NCBI GenBank assembly: GCA_963281255.1
Contig: OY725488.1
Location: 496,001 to 560,000 of the forward strand
DNA length: 64,000 nucleotides
Source: Aphrocallistes beatrix
Lineage: Eukaryota; Porifera; Hexactinellida; Sceptrulophora; Aphrocallistidae
Direction of reading: 5' to 3'
A program made the translations under genes and the position numbers. Shown piece by piece: positions 25,759-36,337 of this stretch (its first letter is position 1; every line of letters begins with the position of its first letter). The notes below the pieces were generated by a model. It was given only the letters and a program-made list of their open reading frames with translations, was not told where the DNA came from and did no database searches.

Positions 25759-26574
25759 CTAAGACTCCTGGCTAACTGAAGCGTGAGATTTCTTGGTCGG
25801 AGGGAGGATATATCTCTGTGCCACAGCCACTGGCTGACTATATCCTCCCTCGTAGTGGTTGTCTTCAAACTTAACATGGTAGTCGTCGTATATGTTTTTT
25901 GGCTGCGAGTGAACTACTCCGGGGTAGAAACAGGTCGTGTGTGGATAGAGAGCGAGCACTGACCGTCCCAGCCCGTAGAGGAGACCCGGGTTCTGAGTAG
26001 GGTCCACCTTATGCACCGGAAGGAACGTTAAGTGTCTCCGCTGTAAGTAGTACATTGCATCTTCCCGCTCGATATCCTGCACCGCATACCTCCCCGTGCA
26101 CCCGTTGTGAGTCTGAACCACACCAAGGATCCACTGGGAGCTGCCCTCGCACGAGGGAATACGTGCCGCCACATGGTCGCCGATTCTCCCTCGGTGCTTT
26201 TCATCAGGCTTTACATTTCCACAGAGCACCGGCGCTTTTTCGTCCTCCCCTTGAAACACAGGCAGTCTGTCCGCATGGTCTCGGAGGAGTGCGAAGAGTG
26301 TGCTTCTACGGACCGAGATTCCAACTTCACTCATGTCCGGGTTGTTCCCTTGTATGAGGAGATCTACCTTCTCCACAGCCGACTCCACATAGGAGGCCTG
26401 TAGTGACAAGCTCTCGAGGCAATCCTTCTTCAGAGGGCTGTAAGAATTGGGATATTTTTCTGCACTTTTGGCAGTTCCTATGTACTTATGACACTTGACG
26501 TTCTCATCTACCAGGTGTTTTATCAGGTCTCTCAGTTCTCTCAACGCATTATCTACAACCAAAGACCTTTGCAT
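25759..26574 (-). CDS. SGF29: SAGA-associated factor 29
   Basis: Intronless 271-aa gene. The N-terminal third is helical. Residues about 130-262 form the SGF29 tandem Tudor module: GDHVAARIP, WILGVVQTHNGCTGRYAVQDIE, RRHLTFLPV, VLALYPHTTCFYPGVVHS, DDYHVKFED and the terminal AQRYIL. The aromatic residues in YAVQDIE, TTCFY and KFED correspond to those that read trimethylated histone H3K4 in human SGF29. It is a subunit of the SAGA and ATAC acetyltransferase complexes. It is head-to-head with the FKBP-CRTAP gene (329 bp between starts). Confidence 0.94.
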   Translation of the reverse strand: MQRSLVVDNALRELRDLIKHLVDENVKCHKYIGTAKSAEKYPNSYSPLKKDCLESLSLQASYVESAVEKVDLLIQGNNPDMSEVGISVRRSTLFALLRDHADRLPVFQGEDEKAPVLCGNVKPDEKHRGRIGDHVAARIPSCEGSSQWILGVVQTHNGCTGRYAVQDIEREDAMYYLQRRHLTFLPVHKVDPTQNPGLLYGLGRSVLALYPHTTCFYPGVVHSQPKNIYDDYHVKFEDNHYEGGYSQPVAVAQRYILPPTKKSHASVSQES

Positions 26575-26903
26575 CCTAAATCAACTGATAGTGTATGTGT
26601 AATTATCACTGATTAAGAAGTTAACAATCTCGGATCAGATTATATCAATAATTTAACTCCTATGTATATACAACACTATTAAGGAACAAGACGTCCAGAC
26701 TTATCAGTGTATTGCAGGTTTTGTAATACAGTATAGTTGTCAGTGCAGTATAGACTATCGTTGTGGCTAGCTCTGTTAGTAATTGTTGAATCTGAGTTAG
26801 TTATTGTAGGCTAACTCTGACCTCGAATATTTCATCTGATTATAGAGAACTATAAATGATTATTGTAATGATTTGAATTGAATCAGTAGATGTTGCAAAT
26901 CAA
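26575..26903. promoter_or_regulatory. divergent intergenic region, SGF29 and FKBP-CRTAP
   Basis: 329 bp holding both promoters. Contains several tgtagtt/gttagtt-like AT-rich tracts; no motif stands out. Bidirectional promoter use is inferred from spacing only. Confidence 0.4.
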
Positions 26904-29900
26904 ATGGCGAACTTCACATCCATTCTATCTCTATTCTTGTTAATGTGTATGTTTTCAAGTTGTTTATGCTCTCTCTCTGAGTATGGCGAGCTTACCAACC
27001 CTGAAGGTCTCTCTGTCATGACCATTACAAAACCTGAGATTTGCGCATATCAAGCAAAAAAGAATGACATTGTATCGTATCATTATATCGGGAGGTTACT
27101 CTCTAACAACAACATATTCGGAAGGAGGTACTATTTGAAATAATCTAAATATGAAGAGTTTTATTTTCAAAACTTTATTTATTGTTCTTATTATACTAAC
27201 AGTTTTGACTATGGGACCCCTTACATCACACCTTTGGGACAGAAGAAGATCATAGCCGGAATGGATCGGGGGTTGATAGGGACCTGTATAGGCGAGAGGA
27301 GACGAATCACAATCCCCCCTCACCTGGCCTACGGGAAGGAGGGAGTTGACGATAAAATTCCTCCTGATTCTACCTTGGTGTTCTACATTAAACTTCTTAA
27401 TATTGAAAGGGTAAACTACAATGAATTATCACTTATTGGTGGTTTCCTAGTTATGTGTTCTGTTCTTCTAGAAAGGAATTTCTCTTGAAATTGAACAGAA
27501 TTTGGAGAAAGTTTACGAAGCAGCGACCAAATCGTACGGGAATGAGAACTGGGAGAGTGCTGTCAATGCATTCGAGAGAGCGCTACATCTCTTTCAGGAA
27601 TTTGAGAACAAAACGATCGAGTGTGTTAGACAATGCACCAAATCTTCAGAAGAAAAGTAAACCATCTGTGACATAACTTTGTGATTATTACTAACGCGCC
27701 CTATTAGCTCGTGTGTTTAACAGGTATTATGAAGATCTTGTAAAACTTGATGCAACATTCCTCTCTACCACAATTCAAGGGATTGGATCGGTTGAGCTTC
27801 TTCTCCCTAAGCTCCAAACTTCCAAATGCTTCAGCTCTTGTCAATCTCACTCTTTCACAAAGAAAGACTTAGATATTTCATATGATACGATTGAAAAATT
27901 CTTGCACAAAAGTGTCCACATCATGATTCAATGGGCCTACAACCAAGTAATTGTATTAACATACACGTTCAATATGATAGGGTAGCTTAGACAATTTTAT
28001 CGAGTTTTTTTCTAGATTGGAGATCAAAAGAATGCTGCAATAAACAATCAAATTTATTTCAACGCATTTCCAGATGTGGAAATGGCGATAAGTAACAGGA
28101 AGTATTATATTGAAATGTTTGGACCTGAACGCTATACGAGTGAGATTAGAAGCCAAGCTATCTTATTCAACACTCACTTCTACTACAGCTCTGGAGTTAG
28201 AGGTACGTATGTACACACATGCTTTATTTATTAAGACTCCTTCATTGAAATTCATAATGAAGAACTCTAATATATTTGGAAATATAATGTCGGAGATTGA
28301 ACTTTGTGAATCGCTGTCTTAATTTGGACATAGATTACATCCGTTTTCGCGAAATTCTTCGATATTTAACTGTCCAATTCCAGCTAACTTTGGAAGGTAG
28401 CAATTTGTAGATGTGCACCTTACCATTGTATTGAACGATGCTTTTATATGTGATATTACTGCTAATACAAATCGGTATCTTCTACGTACTTTGAAGTTCC
28501 ACTGTCTGTCGACCCTCAGCTTCAAATTAGAGAACAGGTGTATGATTTATTATTGAATCACTACAAGTGAAATCGGAAAATTTTTGAAGCAAGTAATTAT
28601 TTTAATATCATATATATACAGGTCGAACTAGAATACATTTAATAACTCTTGTCGAATAGAAGCAACATTGTCGTCTGTTTTTACGATCGACAGATAAGTA
28701 AAAAATAGAGCATATGCAGATAGGATGTGCCAGAGGTCATGCGAATCATAGAAACCCCAGAGAATGCAATCTCTATTCATCTCTTTGGAGGCGACAGGGC
28801 CCAATGCCCAGTTTGAAACAGGAGAAAAATAAAAACTTATAGCGATAATCCAGAGGATTAAGCTGAGTATGCCGATTACGAATGTAATAGCGAACACAAG
28901 AGTGTTGTATCTATACTCTCTTTTGATTATCTTCATCATCCAGTAGTAGGATAAGTAGAACAAGAAGTTGCCGATGAATATTCCAATAAAGATACTAGAT
29001 ATGTCCATTTGACGCGCCGACAAAAAACAACATCCTCCGATGAAGTTTATAACTAGAACGAAGAAGAGATGTACTACGCGATGTTTGTTATTCTGAGGCC
29101 AAAAGACTCGACATATTGTCTGCCTCCTTGTTATCACATCAAAGACGGTAAATACAACCAGGGATATGTTCCCTAGGTAGTACAGGTTGGCGATTATCAA
29201 GAGCGTGGTTAGTAGTATGAAGAGAATGTATACAGAGCGTATCAGGTAGAAAGATTGGGCGGATTCAAATGCTTCTAGAAGTGAGAGACAGGCAAAAGCT
29301 GCGATCAGAAGTATGAATGTGTGTGATGAGAGGTTTGATTGGCCGTGTCTGTTTGTGTACAGCTGTAGAGTGATCAAGAGGAGACTCACTAGCATGAACA
29401 GAGTGTCGTACTGGTAGTTACCTGCATTTGGACAGAGGTGGTATAAAGCGCTCATAGCTCCCTCGACTATCATGCTCAGACCCATTGCCAGTTCCAATCC
29501 CAAGTACCTACTCACTCCTCTATCCACCTCAGCTGTGTTTGTAACATGACGGACTAGTACAATCAAAATGAATAATACTCCTAGAAATACGAATCCAGAG
29601 TTGCTCCAGACATTATTGAATGCGTCGATAGTTCCCATTCTCTGTGCGCATTTCATGTTGTAATAACAAAAGTCCAGGTCACCCTTTTCTTCAGCTAGCT
29701 TCTGCTTCAGTAAACTGCTCTGGAAGGCAGGGATCCCGAAAAACAAGCCAATGCAACAAATACCCCAAACAAAACGCATATACTTCTTTTGCAGATAAAC
29801 CCTTCTTGGCTCTTCACAGTCTTTGTGTGTTGTTTCTATATCCAAGCTAACTTCAATCGTTATCACTTCGTATTTTTTCTTTTTTATTGAGAACTCTTCC

Positions 29901-32900
29901 TTTTCCCAAGAAGAGAGTAGTGATGATTTTTCTTTCGAAAATACAGGAGTGAAAAAAAGGAATGTAAAATTCGAATTTTGTGTGTGAATACATTTCTCAA
30001 ATGTGTAAATAATGAAGAATACAAGGTACATGGGGAGGAACAAACAAGTAACTAAACAGATCTTTACCCAAATGTGATATTCGTGTGTATCAACGTTCTC
30101 AATTAGAACACTGACGTTCTTTGTTTTTTCACCATTATTCGTTTGCATTTCGCTAAGATTTGGACTCATGAGTTTCAGAATTATGAAGAATTCACAATTA
30201 TTTTTGCATCTATAAAGATGAATGTTCGCTGAAGTTTGCATTTGAAAATGTTCCGTGGCAGGGAGCAACTGAGACCCTGGTACAGGGGGAGAGCGGTTGT
30301 AGTACAGCGTGACGTAGAGGAAGGCGAGGTCCTCAGATTGTATCTTAAGATTGATGTGGGAAGAGTTCTGGCGAGATGAGACTTCTGCTAGTTTGGAGTT
30401 CACTCTGTTGGTAGGAGAGTAGTATAGGAGGAGTGGTGCAGAGCGGGAAACAGTTAACCGAGGGCTTGATATGCCTTCTTGCAGGAGAATGTAATCTACA
30501 AACAAATTGACACATTAAACCCTCTTCAGTTATGATTCAATTCCTCCTGTCTCACTTTACCTATACTCTGAAAAGTAATCCTATACAGTATGTCATTATC
30601 GGAATGTGTCAACACGATAACATCTAGGGCACCAGTTCTGTTTGTTTCATCAATGCTAGGACAGTGAGTATATACTGCTGTGTGTCTGACCCTCCCCTCC
30701 TCTCGGTAAGGAAGCGAGAAAGAGACTGGAGGAGTGGAGGTTATTGATATAAATAGAGGGTTGTATTCAGTTGTCTTATTCTTGACCTTGATGACGATTT
30801 GCACGGGGATTCTCTGTGACAAGTTTATTTGATAGTTATGCACCGTTCCTATACTCAACGAATTTTGATACCGTTTCCCCAACGTGACATCTACATTATA
30901 CTGCTCGCAACTCGCTAAGTTGTAGAATTTCAGCTGTGAAATAGCTGTTAATAAGATTAACACCATTAATACCTTTATACAGTCCATTCTCAATTACACT
31001 TCAGGAAGGTTGATAATATTTTATAGTTTGGGACAAAGCCAGATATTATCACCGTTCAAATATGACTTCCGATAAATCCCGAGACAATTATATTATGAAT
31101 GCCTAAGTCAATCTTTCCATTGTTATTTTAATCGAAACCTCGCGAAGAACCATCTCACCAATTCAGGCGAGGTATAGAAGTTCCTGATCTCATGGTTAGT
31201 TAGGAGATAATGTCGTGAGGGGATTCTTGATTCTAATGAGTTGGCGGCTTCACTGCAGTTCAGTTGTTTGCTCTTAATTGGTTGTTTAAAATGTACTTAA
31301 ACATACAGTACACCCTCGGTTATCCGAACACCTCCGTTTGTTAGCTCAAAGATTGGTGTTCGGATAAGTGAAATCGTTCGGATAAGCGAAATACGTATTT
31401 TACGCTCTTAAATGCACATGTACCAACTTAGATGTTATTAAAGAACGTATTATGATTTGAATACTACTTACACGTATGTATAGCCAAACAAATTGACAAT
31501 GCTACGCACAATTTTGGAACATACATTTTTAAGGAATTGATTTATTAAACATTATTTCAGTTATCCGAACACATCATTTCAGTTATCCAAACACATCATT
31601 TCAGTTATCCAAACACATCATTTCAGTTATCCGAACACATCATTTCAGTTATCTGAACACATTATTTCAGTTATCTGAACACATATTTCAGTTATCCGAA
31701 CACATCATTTCAGTTATCCGAACACATTATTTTCACAAATTCGATTGAAAAGTATTTGATAAAATGAGTGGTACTCGAACACACTGTTCGGATAATCGAG
31801 GTGTCGGATAATCGAGGTTCTACTGTATTAACTTGTTTATTGCAGCTTATGAGCAATCAGAATGGAAAACTTGTGTGGAGGAATTCAGCCTCTCTCTCGA
31901 CCATTACAAAGAAGATTTGAAGAGATGTCGTGAATTTTGCTATGCTATACCTATTTCTAAAGATATTCATTTGGTAAGGACATACTTAAATATTAGAGAT
32001 GACTTAAACTCCCGAGATATAAACACTCACCCGTTTACAATTCAAATCGTGTTAGTAGCAGGTTCAGCTTACAGTTTAATTTGATCTCAGAGAGGTTAAA
32101 ATATAACCATTTAATGGGAATTACTTGTTCAATATATGTTTTGTGTGCTGATGCTGGCCATAGAATAAGTCTAATTATATGTACATATATGTATATATAG
32201 TACATACGTATCTTATAACTTATAAGTAATGAAACGTCCTTTACTTCCTATCATTTCCCTCTCACTTCTACTTTTGCTGGATTACTCCGGTTATTCTGCA
32301 AGCATTCCTCCCCCTATCTTGACACTTCATTTCAGTGCCAAAGTACGTCCAAGCAAACTATTTGATGATTCACCGTTTGCACATGGAAGAGGCGCTACGA
32401 TACACATGAATTCAACTGCTGGCGATAGCAACACTGATCTTATGATCTCTGAATCCGACTACAACTTCTCCAATCAGTCAGAAATCGTTTACCAGTCGTA
32501 CATAAATGGGAAGGAAAAGAGAGGATATTTTATTTATGATGGCGAATGCATTACGCATAACATTGATGGCATACCCCCAGTATACCTGATCGTGCCCGGG
32601 TTTTTTTCAGGATTTGTTTTCGGAAGCTTTAACAATATGCCTCGCGTCATGACATCAAGCCACCAGCACTGTCCGTACCACGAGTCTCTCTCCTGCGAGG
32701 GATGGACATGTTTCGGACCAGATGATAATTCTGATAACGCGACTGTCTTCATCCATGGCACAACAATTCTGCACTATTTCATGGGTTTGGCTCCTGGAAA
32801 ACCTGTCATATTCGACGAGTTCAAACCTGGATTCCAGACGATTGACAAGTTCCAGCCACCCAAAGCTGCTCACTGTGATCCTAACTAACATCCGATCTAA

Positions 32901-33733
32901 TCTACGTATAGTTGAGTTAACATAGGAGAGTGTTCCACAGTTTTGTTTTTACAATTACGTATCATTTAGTATGAGTATATATTGTAATTTGTAAACTCGG
33001 GTATTATGGTATGTATGTGATTTCTTGTGTATAGTGCTTGTACGTAGGTATTAGAGACATAGCACATATCCTTAAATTCTTTTCTTCCAGATGTCCAAGT
33101 ATAACGGCGTCCATATTGCGCAAGTAGAGGGATTCGTTTTGAAATGTAAGATGGAGTGTCTGGAGAGGATCGAACTGGTGGAAGGTGTCCGGGTTAATAA
33201 TCTATTAGCAAATCTATTTGCCCATCTTCAATACTGTTACTTCCAGAGTGAGTTATACATTCCAAATGAAATATATTATTGATTGGAGAGCGTTCTTACA
33301 AATTTGAAATCTGAATTTATTAAGATGACCAGAAGGAAGAAGGATTTGAAGCAGCTCTCACATGGAGACAATTGGATTTTTCAGACAAAAATGCTGAAAA
33401 AGCAGTTGAATATTTCATGAAGGAACCAGATATAGCATCAACTAAGATTTACCAACCCATAATGGTTAGTAGGATTTTAATGAAACTATCGAAAGCTTGA
33501 ACTTTTATTGTTTTCATTTGGAAATAATTAGAATAAACAATTTAATTTTTAACTTTTTCTTTCTTAAATAGGAATTTATCAAAATGAAAGAGCTGAGTGA
33601 GATAGAAGCTAGGCTGCTTGCATTTTACAAGACAAACAAGTTTCCAAAGAAGCAAGGATTGATGGGAGAGCAGACTGCAGACAATCTGAACATTAGACTA
33701 CGGTCCATCGGCAGAATTAAAGATGAATTGTAA
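26904..33733 (+). CDS. FKBP prolyl isomerase fused to a CRTAP/leprecan-type domain, KDEL-terminated
   Basis: Nine exons (26904-27127, 27203-27410, 27472-27656, 27724-27946, 28016-28202, 31846-31973, 33091-33247, 33325-33464, 33572-33733) join in frame at every junction to 537 aa. A signal peptide (1-23) is followed by an FKBP domain (about 50-143: SYHYIGRL, GMDRGLIGTC, RRITIPPHLAYG, IPPDSTLVFYIKLL). From residue 145 the protein matches CRTAP and the non-catalytic half of prolyl 3-hydroxylases, with all four leprecan CxxxC pairs (195/199, 241/245, 370/374, 404/408) and TPR-like helices. No dioxygenase domain follows; the chain ends IKDEL, an ER-retention signal. CRTAP works with P3H1 and cyclophilin B on collagen. 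Introns 5 (3.6 kb) and 6 (1.1 kb) each contain a complete gene. Confidence 0.88.
28628..30987 (-). CDS. SIDT1: SID-1 transmembrane family protein (nested antisense gene)
   Basis: Two exons on the minus strand (30987-30561, 30495-28628; 65-bp intron) encode 764 aa. A signal peptide and a beta-rich, N-glycosylatable ectodomain (about 20-290) are followed by a membrane anchor near residue 300, a cytosolic loop, and then about ten further helices. Family signatures: CYYNMKCAQRMGTIDAFNNV, GAMSALYHLCPN, YDTLFMLV and, near the end, NRDCILWGFYDSHDLWHILS. The last holds the conserved S/H/D/H residues of the CREST-like membrane hydrolase core. SID-1 proteins import double-stranded RNA; vertebrate SIDT1/2 act in lysosomal RNA and lipid handling. 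The whole gene lies inside intron 5 of the FKBP-CRTAP gene. Confidence 0.94.
31306..31825. mobile_element. pogo/Tigger-like MITE, 520 bp, with internal minisatellite
   Basis: Left end cagtacaccctcggttatcc and right end, read in reverse, cagtagaacctcgattatcc form imperfect terminal inverted repeats. Both flanks are TA, the target site of Tc1/mariner and pogo elements. CAGT.. AACCTCG.TTATCCGAAC termini are typical of Tigger-like elements. No transposase frame. The interior includes eight tandem units rich in the same ttatccgaac terminus motif. It sits just upstream of exon 6 of the FKBP-CRTAP gene, ending 20 bp before the acceptor. Confidence 0.85.
31552..31735. repeat. 22-bp minisatellite inside the pogo-like MITE
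   Basis: Eight units of the form ttatccgaacacatcatttc+ag start at 31561, 31583, 31605, 31627, 31649, 31671, 31692 and 31714. Units differ by single bases (ccgaa/ccaaa/ctgaa), and one is 21 bp. The unit core copies part of the element's own terminal repeat. Confidence 0.92.
32229..32888 (+). CDS. secreted protein, possibly ependymin-related (nested sense gene)
   Basis: Intronless 219-aa frame starting MKRPLLPIISLSLLLLLDYS, a clear signal peptide. The mature part has N-glycosylation sites (NST, NFS, NQS, NAT) and five cysteines: one in YDGECITHN, one in HQHCPYH, two in SLSCEGWTCF and one close to the C-terminus (AAHCDPN). There is no membrane segment. The arrangement of a cysteine after a YDGEC-type strand and a final F.PP...C recalls ependymin-related lysosomal or secreted proteins, but I am not sure of the family. 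It lies wholly within intron 6 of the FKBP-CRTAP gene, same strand, so it needs its own promoter or is part of the host's alternative transcripts. Confidence 0.6.
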   Translation: MKRPLLPIISLSLLLLLDYSGYSASIPPPILTLHFSAKVRPSKLFDDSPFAHGRGATIHMNSTAGDSNTDLMISESDYNFSNQSEIVYQSYINGKEKRGYFIYDGECITHNIDGIPPVYLIVPGFFSGFVFGSFNNMPRVMTSSHQHCPYHESLSCEGWTCFGPDDNSDNATVFIHGTTILHYFMGLAPGKPVIFDEFKPGFQTIDKFQPPKAAHCDPN

Positions 33734-33947: not shown

Positions 33948-34082
33948 ATGACGGAAACTGTGATTGTGAGGACTTTCGTAAAGGATGATAGGCCAGCACA
34001 TCTTCTGCACTGCATCATCACCTTGTTTTGTCCTTGGTGGATCTTTGTCTGGATATGCATGTGCTGCTGTTACGGATGCTGA
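33948..34082 (+). CDS. small cysteine-rich membrane protein, array copy 1
   Basis: 44 aa, starting METVI-like (MTETVIVRTFVKD). The C-terminal half is the module shared by five neighbouring genes: DDRPAHLLHCIITLFCPWW, a short hydrophobic stretch and the end CMCCCYGC. The hydrophobic stretch of about 16 residues flanked by cysteines suggests a membrane-inserted, perhaps palmitoylated, C-terminus. No intron. Support is the conservation of this reading frame among the five copies, not homology to a known family. Confidence 0.75.
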   Translation: MTETVIVRTFVKDDRPAHLLHCIITLFCPWWIFVWICMCCCYGC

Positions 34083-35108
34083 GTATCTGACGAAGGAGTA
34101 CTTGTGTACGGAAACAAAAATTAATTAGTTTGTATGCCGTATTTTTGTTTGTTTGTATGCATTATATACTGTAAGATAAATACATGTTCTCTACCTTCAA
34201 GTTAATCTAACTCAAATTTAAATAGTATGCCGAAACGCGTAAATGAATGTAGCTGTAGAGCACTGGGCCAGAGGAAATTTTCATTTTCATTCCCCTTAAC
34301 GGTCGTGTAGCAGGATTCCTGTGTTATTATTAGCTATCATGGGCGCATAGTCTGAATTAATAAAAATCTCAATCAGTTGATACAATTCAACAGATTAACG
34401 TTATACTATAATAATTATCTAAATCAGATGAATGATACCAATGCAACAAGAACCACTTTCTTATTCACAAGTATTGCATTCAAAAAGAAGCTTTAGTAAA
34501 TAAAACGAACTTATTGATGCCAATCTGTCAACTGTCATTTTATTTCTATATACGTACTTGTAATTCGACACTGATACTTTAGAATTTGTATATAAGGCAT
34601 GCAGCCTAATCAAATAAAAGGTCTGTAAGAAAACTTTCATATAGAAGATATCTCTCGAGATATAACTTTATTAGGCCCATTAATCAGGAGACATTAATTA
34701 TAATTCCCTACAATGGAATTGCATATTCACTTGGGAGTAGCTTACTGTTCCGTATCGATATCATGTATCATAAACTTGAAAAGTTTCCTATACCTGTCCT
34801 GATTGACTAATTAGAGAAAGATATTCCGCATTTATTCTTCCTCGGATACAGGGGTGGCTAAATTAGTGTCTTTTCTAAATTTATTCCAATTCTTTCCCCG
34901 ACAGATTATTAAATTTTCCCCGACGGGAGATGTAGCCCCCTATGCCCCCCTATCGCCACCCCTGTTCGGAGAACCAGTTTTATTATTTTGGCTGCTACGA
35001 CTCTATCATAATAAAACAAAAACAAAAAGTCCTAGCGTTTTAATATATAATATTATTAAATAATAACTATCCTATCCTTTGACCTAGCAGTGAACACAAT
35101 CTCAAGTA
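34083..35108. other. spacer between array copies 1 and 2
   Basis: About 1 kb, AT-rich. A 70-codon frame at 34854-35063 lacks homology to the array module and is probably chance. No repeat recognised. Confidence 0.45.
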
Positions 35109-35249
35109 ATGGGTGAAACGACAGTACTTGTGAAGAACTACATCGTTAAAGACGAGAAGCCGAACCATTTGCTGCACTGTCTCATAACCATATTCTGTCC
35201 CTGTTGGGTGTTCGTCTGGCTGTTAGTCTGCTGCTGCTACGGATGTTAA
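35109..35249 (+). CDS. small cysteine-rich membrane protein, array copy 2
   Basis: 46 aa, MGETTVLVKNYIVKDEK, then PNHLLHCLITIFCPCWVFVW and the shared end VCCCYGC. Differs from the other copies in an FCPCW instead of FCPWW core, adding a cysteine in the hydrophobic stretch. Same strand and intronless. AATAAA lies at 35308-35313 downstream. Confidence 0.75.
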   Translation: MGETTVLVKNYIVKDEKPNHLLHCLITIFCPCWVFVWLLVCCCYGC

Positions 35250-35719
35250 CTGACACTCAAACAGCTCAATAGACTTCACAAAGTTTCATTCTTTACATTG
35301 ATACTCTAATAAATTATGTATATTATGTGGATGACAATTCGTCAGTTATTAAATGAAAATAAAGATTGAACTATTATGTGGTGATTTTCATTTTCTAGGA
35401 TGAATACGATCAATGTTTCGGGATCGTTGCCTGCTTCATTGTGATTGAATTTAATGAGATTTCCCAGCTTTCTTAAAAATTTGACACTAAGTGTTAAGTT
35501 CTAGACGCTGATTATTAAAAAAATCATCCCTTAGACAAAGTTAGATCGTGTAGACTCCCTTAGACCCACCACTGTTGATTGCTGTTAGCTACCAATTGAG
35601 AGCAATCATGCACACGAACTTATATAGATCTGAGTTGAAAATTGTAATTCTGAAATGTCCTAACTGTCTACATACATTTATTTAGATCTTTGTTAGTAAT
35701 TCCAACTCAGAACTCAGCA
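35250..35719. other. spacer between array copies 2 and 3
   Basis: About 470 bp of AT-rich sequence with the copy 2 polyadenylation signal at 35308 and no other recognised feature. Confidence 0.45.
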
Positions 35720-35860
35720 ATGACTCAGACAGTAGTGAAGGTGAGGACAGTCATGCTCAAGGATGATCGTCCGAATCACTTGGTGCACTGCCTCATTACG
35801 CTATTCTGTCCTTGGTGGCTGATCGTGTGGCTCTGCGTTTGCTGCTGCTACGGATGTTAA
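35720..35860 (+). CDS. small cysteine-rich membrane protein, array copy 3
   Basis: 46 aa, MTQTVVKVRTVMLKDDR, then PNHLVHCLITLFCPWWLIVW and CVCCCYGC. Closest in layout to copies 1 and 2 (no proline-rich N-terminus). Intronless, plus strand. Confidence 0.75.
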   Translation: MTQTVVKVRTVMLKDDRPNHLVHCLITLFCPWWLIVWLCVCCCYGC

Positions 35861-36058
35861 ATTTCTAAATTTTCTATTCCCCAACTGGTTGTGTTAAATT
35901 TATGTTTTGTTTTTTTTATGGTGGATAACAATTTTCTATTATTTGCGAAGTTTTACTTCTAAGAGTCGTCTTTTAAATAAAATGGTTATTGGGAGAATGT
36001 TACTAGTAACCCATATGGAATTTTTGATATCAGTTCGTTACTATTGGCACCATTAGAG

Positions 36059-36337
36059 ATGCAGCAGAATCCCCCGCCATACCAATACAATCAGCCAGCA
36101 CAGATGCAGCAGCCGATGTATGCCCCGCCTCCTCAGAACCCCGGCTACCAGTACCCGCCCCAGCCCGTGCACCAACAGCCCTACCCTCCTCAGCAAGCCT
36201 CTCCCCAAGTAGTGGTCACCAACGTGACCCACCATCACGACGACCGCCCCAACCACCTGCTACACTGCATCATCACTCTCTTCTGCCCTTGGTGGATTCT
36301 GGTCTGGTGCTGTGTGTGTCTCTGCTACGGATGTTAG
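36059..36337 (+). CDS. small cysteine-rich membrane protein with Pro/Gln-rich head, array copy 4
   Basis: 92 aa from the ATG at 36059 (no ATG lies upstream in frame). The first 58 residues are Pro/Gln/Tyr-rich (QQNPPPYQYNQPAQMQQPMY and similar), then HHHDDRPNHLLHCIITLFCP and the end CVCLCYGC. The proline-rich head plus C-terminal cysteine-rich membrane module has the plan of CYSTM-type proteins, although the module sequence itself is different. Role unknown. Confidence 0.8.
   Translation: MQQNPPPYQYNQPAQMQQPMYAPPPQNPGYQYPPQPVHQQPYPPQQASPQVVVTNVTHHHDDRPNHLLHCIITLFCPWWILVWCCVCLCYGC

Follow-up and report, generated by a model that had tools for sequence, protein, structure and literature searches.

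The fusion gene and its product

Within a 64,000-nucleotide stretch of the genome of the sponge Aphrocallistes beatrix (the window, in what follows), the forward strand carries at positions 26904 to 33733 a gene whose predicted product combines an FKBP domain with a leprecan region of the type found in the collagen chaperone CRTAP. Its nine exons join in phase into 1614 nucleotides that encode 537 amino acids, with a single, terminal stop codon, and all eight introns start with GT and end with AG. The exons, and the intron found at the fusion boundary, are as follows.

26904..27127, +: exon 1, start codon, hydrophobic leader and N-terminal portion of the FKBP domain
27203..27410, +: exon 2, remainder of the FKBP domain, closing at the domain end (..LLNIER)
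27411..27471, +: intron 2 (61 bp, in phase 0), marking the fusion boundary where the FKBP domain ends
27472..27656, +: exon 3, beginning of the leprecan TPR region, CxxxC pair 1
27724..27946, +: exon 4, leprecan TPR region, CxxxC pair 2
28016..28202, +: exon 5, leprecan TPR region, with an Asn aligned with N184 of human CRTAP (collagen groove)
31846..31973, +: exon 6, leprecan TPR region, CxxxC pair 3
33091..33247, +: exon 7, leprecan TPR region, CxxxC pair 4
33325..33464, +: exon 8, end of the leprecan TPR region
33572..33733, +: exon 9, C-terminal part with a conserved K(K/R)xGxxG(D/E) stretch, KDEL and stop

A Pfam search of the 537-residue product found both domains well above their cut-offs: FKBP_C at residues 49-140 (E 1.7e-27, 96 bits against 21.1) and TPR_leprecan (PF23557) at residues 155-469 (E 1.1e-24, 87.8 bits against 27), the latter match spanning positions 2-307 of the 310 of the profile. 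The CxxxC pairs lie at residues 195, 241, 370 and 404, and the protein ends in RIKDEL. With the N-terminal leader, which was judged by eye, this terminal KDEL gives the layout of a soluble resident of the endoplasmic reticulum (ER). The product has one FKBP_C stretch, and Pfam gave no EF-hand match in it and none to the 2OG-Fe(II) oxygenase domain at E <= 0.1. The initial annotation, made from the letters alone, had described the same in-phase join of nine exons with a leader, an FKBP domain, four CxxxC pairs and KDEL, and exon joining and the domain search bear it out. These results support the prediction of a protein directed to the ER, with an FKBP domain and a leprecan/CRTAP-type scaffold linked covalently in one chain.

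The locus could also be read as two adjacent genes, one for an FKBP and one for a CRTAP-like protein, that are joined only through the choice of exons. An intron does sit at the boundary, reading through it stops the FKBP frame at 27486 if the intron is retained (27410/27472 unspliced), and the genome has other FKBP genes. However, exon 3 is without a Met codon and is immediately preceded by an in-frame TAG, which forms the acceptor site, so that this exon offers the leprecan part no separate start; nor does that part have a leader in exon 3, as the initial annotation had noted, and the FKBP part lacks an ER signal of its own. The comparison with other sponges given below led us to reject the two-gene reading, which we regard as hardly credible, since the same fusion is present in nine relatives.

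Conservation of the fusion in sponges

The survey of relatives that the initial annotation had proposed yielded nine database proteins carrying FKBP_C and TPR_leprecan in the same order as the window protein, and a Pfam scan confirmed both domains in all nine. According to the Pfam assignments, both were present in four of the 45 proteins returned by a search with the window protein, and in nine of the 109 returned at E <= 1e-10 by residues 60-480 of the relative from Halichondria, the query and the previous four included. The other 100 of these 109 have FKBP_C without TPR_leprecan and are mostly of the FKBP9/10 type; those assigned to a named organism are from vertebrates, except for one from a tunicate. 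The fusion relatives include proteins of Oopsacas (Hexactinellida) and of Halichondria panicea and Geodia barretti (Demospongiae), together with six further proteins of 519-548 amino acids from contigs whose longest are 1759-3037 bases. As the window gene has eight introns, the sources of these six are probably transcript-derived or intron-poor. All relatives were compared as protein sequences, not as DNA.

The closest database relative found was that of Oopsacas minuta, which is 80% identical to the window protein in the FKBP part (100 positions) and 51% identical in the shared leprecan part (212 positions). At the junction, an R-x-G motif is conserved in 10/10 fusions. The first four Cys of the CxxxC pairs are kept in 10/10, and all eight in the 9/9 that cover that part. 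The C-terminus is xxEL (KDEL in the window protein) in 9/9 fusions with complete C-termini; P0001, a truncated gene model whose sequence diverges from that of the window protein close to the exon 5/6 boundary, was excluded from this count. The best support for a real join comes from the nine relatives, all of which carry the two domains in this order. At the level of protein sequence, the comparison confirms that the fusion is no gene-model accident and is conserved in at least two sponge classes. A profile search restricted to the leprecan parts returned two proteins and missed P0024 and P0025 of its own alignment; it thus cannot show where the fusion is absent, and we make no claim on other phyla. 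Likewise, the VIA-align rows are mostly FKBP domains, and the absence of other families among them is uninformative.

In the databases the fusion protein goes by the names FKBP9-like, FK506-binding protein 2, SC65-like (the annotation of the Halichondria fusion) and cartilage-associated protein, each of which covers half of it. No described FKBP-leprecan fusion was found among the titles and abstract beginnings of the best-ranked matches in searches of open-access literature, in agreement with the initial annotation, which knew of none. In the main texts of the genome papers on Oopsacas and Aphrocallistes, FKBP and hydroxylase each occur 0 times. The architecture is real and conserved, and apparently undescribed: the parts belong to known families, and the combination and the layout of ER signals are apparently new.

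The FKBP domain and its pocket

We built a maximum likelihood tree of FKBP domains, which are short and were sampled in small number. P0050, which lacks the first half of the domain, was excluded from it and enters the pocket counts only at the positions it covers. The 15 FKBP9/10 domains in the tree come from four proteins, the pattern used for cutting domains having missed some; three were taken from each of the Clavelina and Dipodomys proteins ('Clavelina d3' being a later domain), and the lamprey protein P0027 was not used in the analyses. The fusions formed one group (support 100), the FKBP9/10 domains another (97), and FKBP2, FKBP12 and FKBP14 a third (96). When the tree was rooted on FKBP12 the fusions fell with FKBP9/10 (split support 96); unrooted, the three groups just meet. 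The solved single-domain structures nearest to the fusion domain are those of FKBP2 and FKBP14. We also considered an FKBP2 gene run into CRTAP and rejected it: the genome has a separate FKBP2-like gene, on C9, whose product ends in NEL, and the tree sets the fusion domain apart from FKBP2.

FKBP9 and FKBP10 (FKBP63/FKBP65) are ER FKBPs, and FKBP10 acts in collagen biosynthesis. They have in common with the fusion a C-terminal ER signal and, in some of their domains, M at position 59 and an ERRRITIPPHL stretch. They differ in having several FKBP domains, mostly with EF hands, and no leprecan part, in contrast to the single FKBP domain of the fusion.

Pocket positions are given in FKBP12 numbering, in which D37, R42 and W59 are among the pocket residues. 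In 9/9 fusions G stands in place of D37 and Y in place of R42, and position 59 is M in 10/10, in place of W59; the positions of Y26, F36, I56, Y82 and F99 are kept. Between the window protein and the seven relatives other than Oopsacas that have a full domain, the FKBP domain is 56-65% identical, as against 21-25% for the leprecan part, meaning that the FKBP domain is the more constrained of the two, its pocket being altered in one consistent way. Substitutions of this kind in a domain that is nevertheless the conserved part would suit a non-catalytic module that binds collagen, the hydroxylase or another chaperone, in which case the protein would be a scaffold only. We hold this to be rather unlikely, though it deserves attention: besides the five positions kept, M at position 59 is also present in 14/15 FKBP9/10 domains, human FKBP2 too has a residue other than R at position 42, and D37 is also missing in some FKBP9 domains. 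Many FKBP9/10 domains keep D37 and R42, but a few are without them (e.g. Misgurnus d4), and the fusion is therefore not unique in this loss. Moreover, PMC5380960 treats FKBP65 as an isomerase. Because the pocket is altered alike in every member covering it, we go no further than to infer that the fusion domain may have prolyl isomerase activity.

Possible partner genes in the same genome

In the 100.5-Mb, 28-contig assembly we found one other leprecan gene, on C14 (L016 1408-3363), an uninterrupted frame of 651 amino acids with TPR_leprecan and 2OG-Fe(II) oxygenase domains whose best match is human prolyl 3-hydroxylase 1 (P3H1; 284 bits). This P3H ends in ..QVIYNAM, with no KDEL-type ER-retrieval signal at its C-terminus, and an AATAAA lies about 47 bases past its stop codon. 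TPR_leprecan is common to the fusion and P3H1-3, and the oxygenase domain of the P3Hs is not in the fusion, this genome having a separate P3H. The assembly also contains at least 128 collagen-repeat matches, and C7 encodes a cyclophilin with a hydrophobic leader, which we take to be cyclophilin-B-like. The initial annotation had suggested a complex using an FKBP rather than a cyclophilin; in that form this found no support, as the same genome encodes that cyclophilin besides the separate FKBP2-like protein. Since the cyclophilin-B-like gene is kept, the FKBP is not a simple replacement of cyclophilin.

To our knowledge, neither CRTAP nor SC65 has an FKBP domain. In the vertebrate P3H1/CRTAP/cyclophilin B complex the KDEL is on P3H1 only, according to passages of PMC3352923, and passages of PMC4847768 place the ER signals of the two leprecan complexes on P3H1 and P3H3 only and make SC65/P3H4 a member of the leprecan family, like the fusion. 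The sponge has its signal on the fusion and none on its P3H, which is the reverse of the vertebrate layout. Retention could then work in reverse as well, the fusion holding the P3H.

Relationship to CRTAP and P3H

A tree of 13 leprecan sequences (the ten fusions, this genome's P3H, human CRTAP and human P3H1), with thin sampling and long branches, bears on whether the fusion is orthologous to vertebrate CRTAP, with an FKBP domain added, or represents an ancestral CRTAP from which this domain was subsequently lost. The fusion resembles CRTAP in having no 2OG-oxygenase domain, and CRTAP is the best-scoring solved relative by sequence. CRTAP positions 150, 153 and 187 were picked from residues that we presume to belong to the groove; the residue that passages of PMC12433258 name as a collagen-groove residue of human CRTAP is Asn184 only. 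In the tree, however, CRTAP is not the closest relative of the fusions: it groups with human P3H1 (support 99), and the topology joining it to the fusions was rejected by the approximately unbiased (AU) test (p 0.0118 with one CRTAP, two P3Hs and ten fusions), so the fusions do not come out closer to CRTAP than CRTAP is to P3H1. We therefore consider it quite improbable that the fusion is CRTAP proper. Where the initial annotation had left the choice between an ancestral and a convergent form, the ancestral one is disfavoured on these sequences and a parallel enzyme-less leprecan fits better. The enzyme-less state probably has separate origins in the fusion and in CRTAP, with the reserve that such sampling and branch lengths impose.

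One result slightly lowers our confidence in the account favoured below. The best tree does not group all their leprecan parts and places the human pair and this genome's P3H between the glass-sponge fusions and the others (one node with support 52). A tree grouping all fusions is equally good (delta lnL 0.12, AU p 0.559) and, because the FKBP domains do group, a single origin of the fusion is the simplest reading.

Genes within and around the fusion gene

Two introns of the fusion gene hold further coding frames. Antisense within intron 5 lies a gene for a SID-1 type double-stranded RNA channel, 28628-30993 (-), with a PF13965 match over 28628-30514 (E 7.7e-106); the frame 30526-30993 may be its first exon. 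The same intron contains 8.4 copies of a 22-bp tandem repeat (31549-31732), which is part of a longer tract of related TATCCGAACA-type repeats. Inside intron 6, an uninterrupted open reading frame (ORF) of 220 amino acids with a hydrophobic N-terminus, 32226-32888 (+), gave no Pfam and no PDB match. Downstream, four ORFs for small proteins, 33948-36334 (+), have in common a cysteine-rich ending ..CYGC; they gave no Pfam match and presumably resemble BRI3-type proteins. Upstream, a single frame at 25759-26580 (-) encodes an SGF29-type protein with a tudor-like domain (PF07039, E 7.3e-27).

Proposed mechanism and significance

We favour, as the somewhat more probable account, an ER-resident FKBP-leprecan fusion that would do the work of CRTAP plus an isomerase in one chain, in parallel to the vertebrate complex, with the mechanism drawn from homology. 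Like CRTAP, the TPR part would grip proline-rich procollagen chains with its groove, and the tethered FKBP domain would act on, or bind, X-Pro bonds nearby. The fusion would pair with the genome's separate prolyl 3-hydroxylase and its retrieval signal would retain this signal-less enzyme in the ER. Such a protein would be a CRTAP-plus-isomerase pair in a single chain, evolved in parallel to P3H1/CRTAP/cyclophilin B. More tentatively, and with somewhat less than even confidence, sponges may have a collagen-processing complex of their own, in which the fused subunit would provide substrate grip, a repurposed FKBP site and ER retrieval, and would hold the signal-less P3H in the ER. If so, the vertebrate wiring, in which the hydroxylase bears the KDEL and a separate cyclophilin isomerises, would be reversed, and enzyme-less leprecan scaffolds would have arisen more than once.

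Annotation under four names hides this fusion family, in which two types of vertebrate collagen-biosynthesis parts, separate there, appear as one chain in two sponge classes, in the manner of a Rosetta-stone fusion. The family lends support to the view that leprecan scaffolds operate together with a prolyl isomerase, offers a single-chain protein for testing this view and points to parallel evolution of the scaffold that lacks the enzyme domain. With the ER signals divided in this way between fusion and hydroxylase, a simple mechanism of retention can be predicted and tested.
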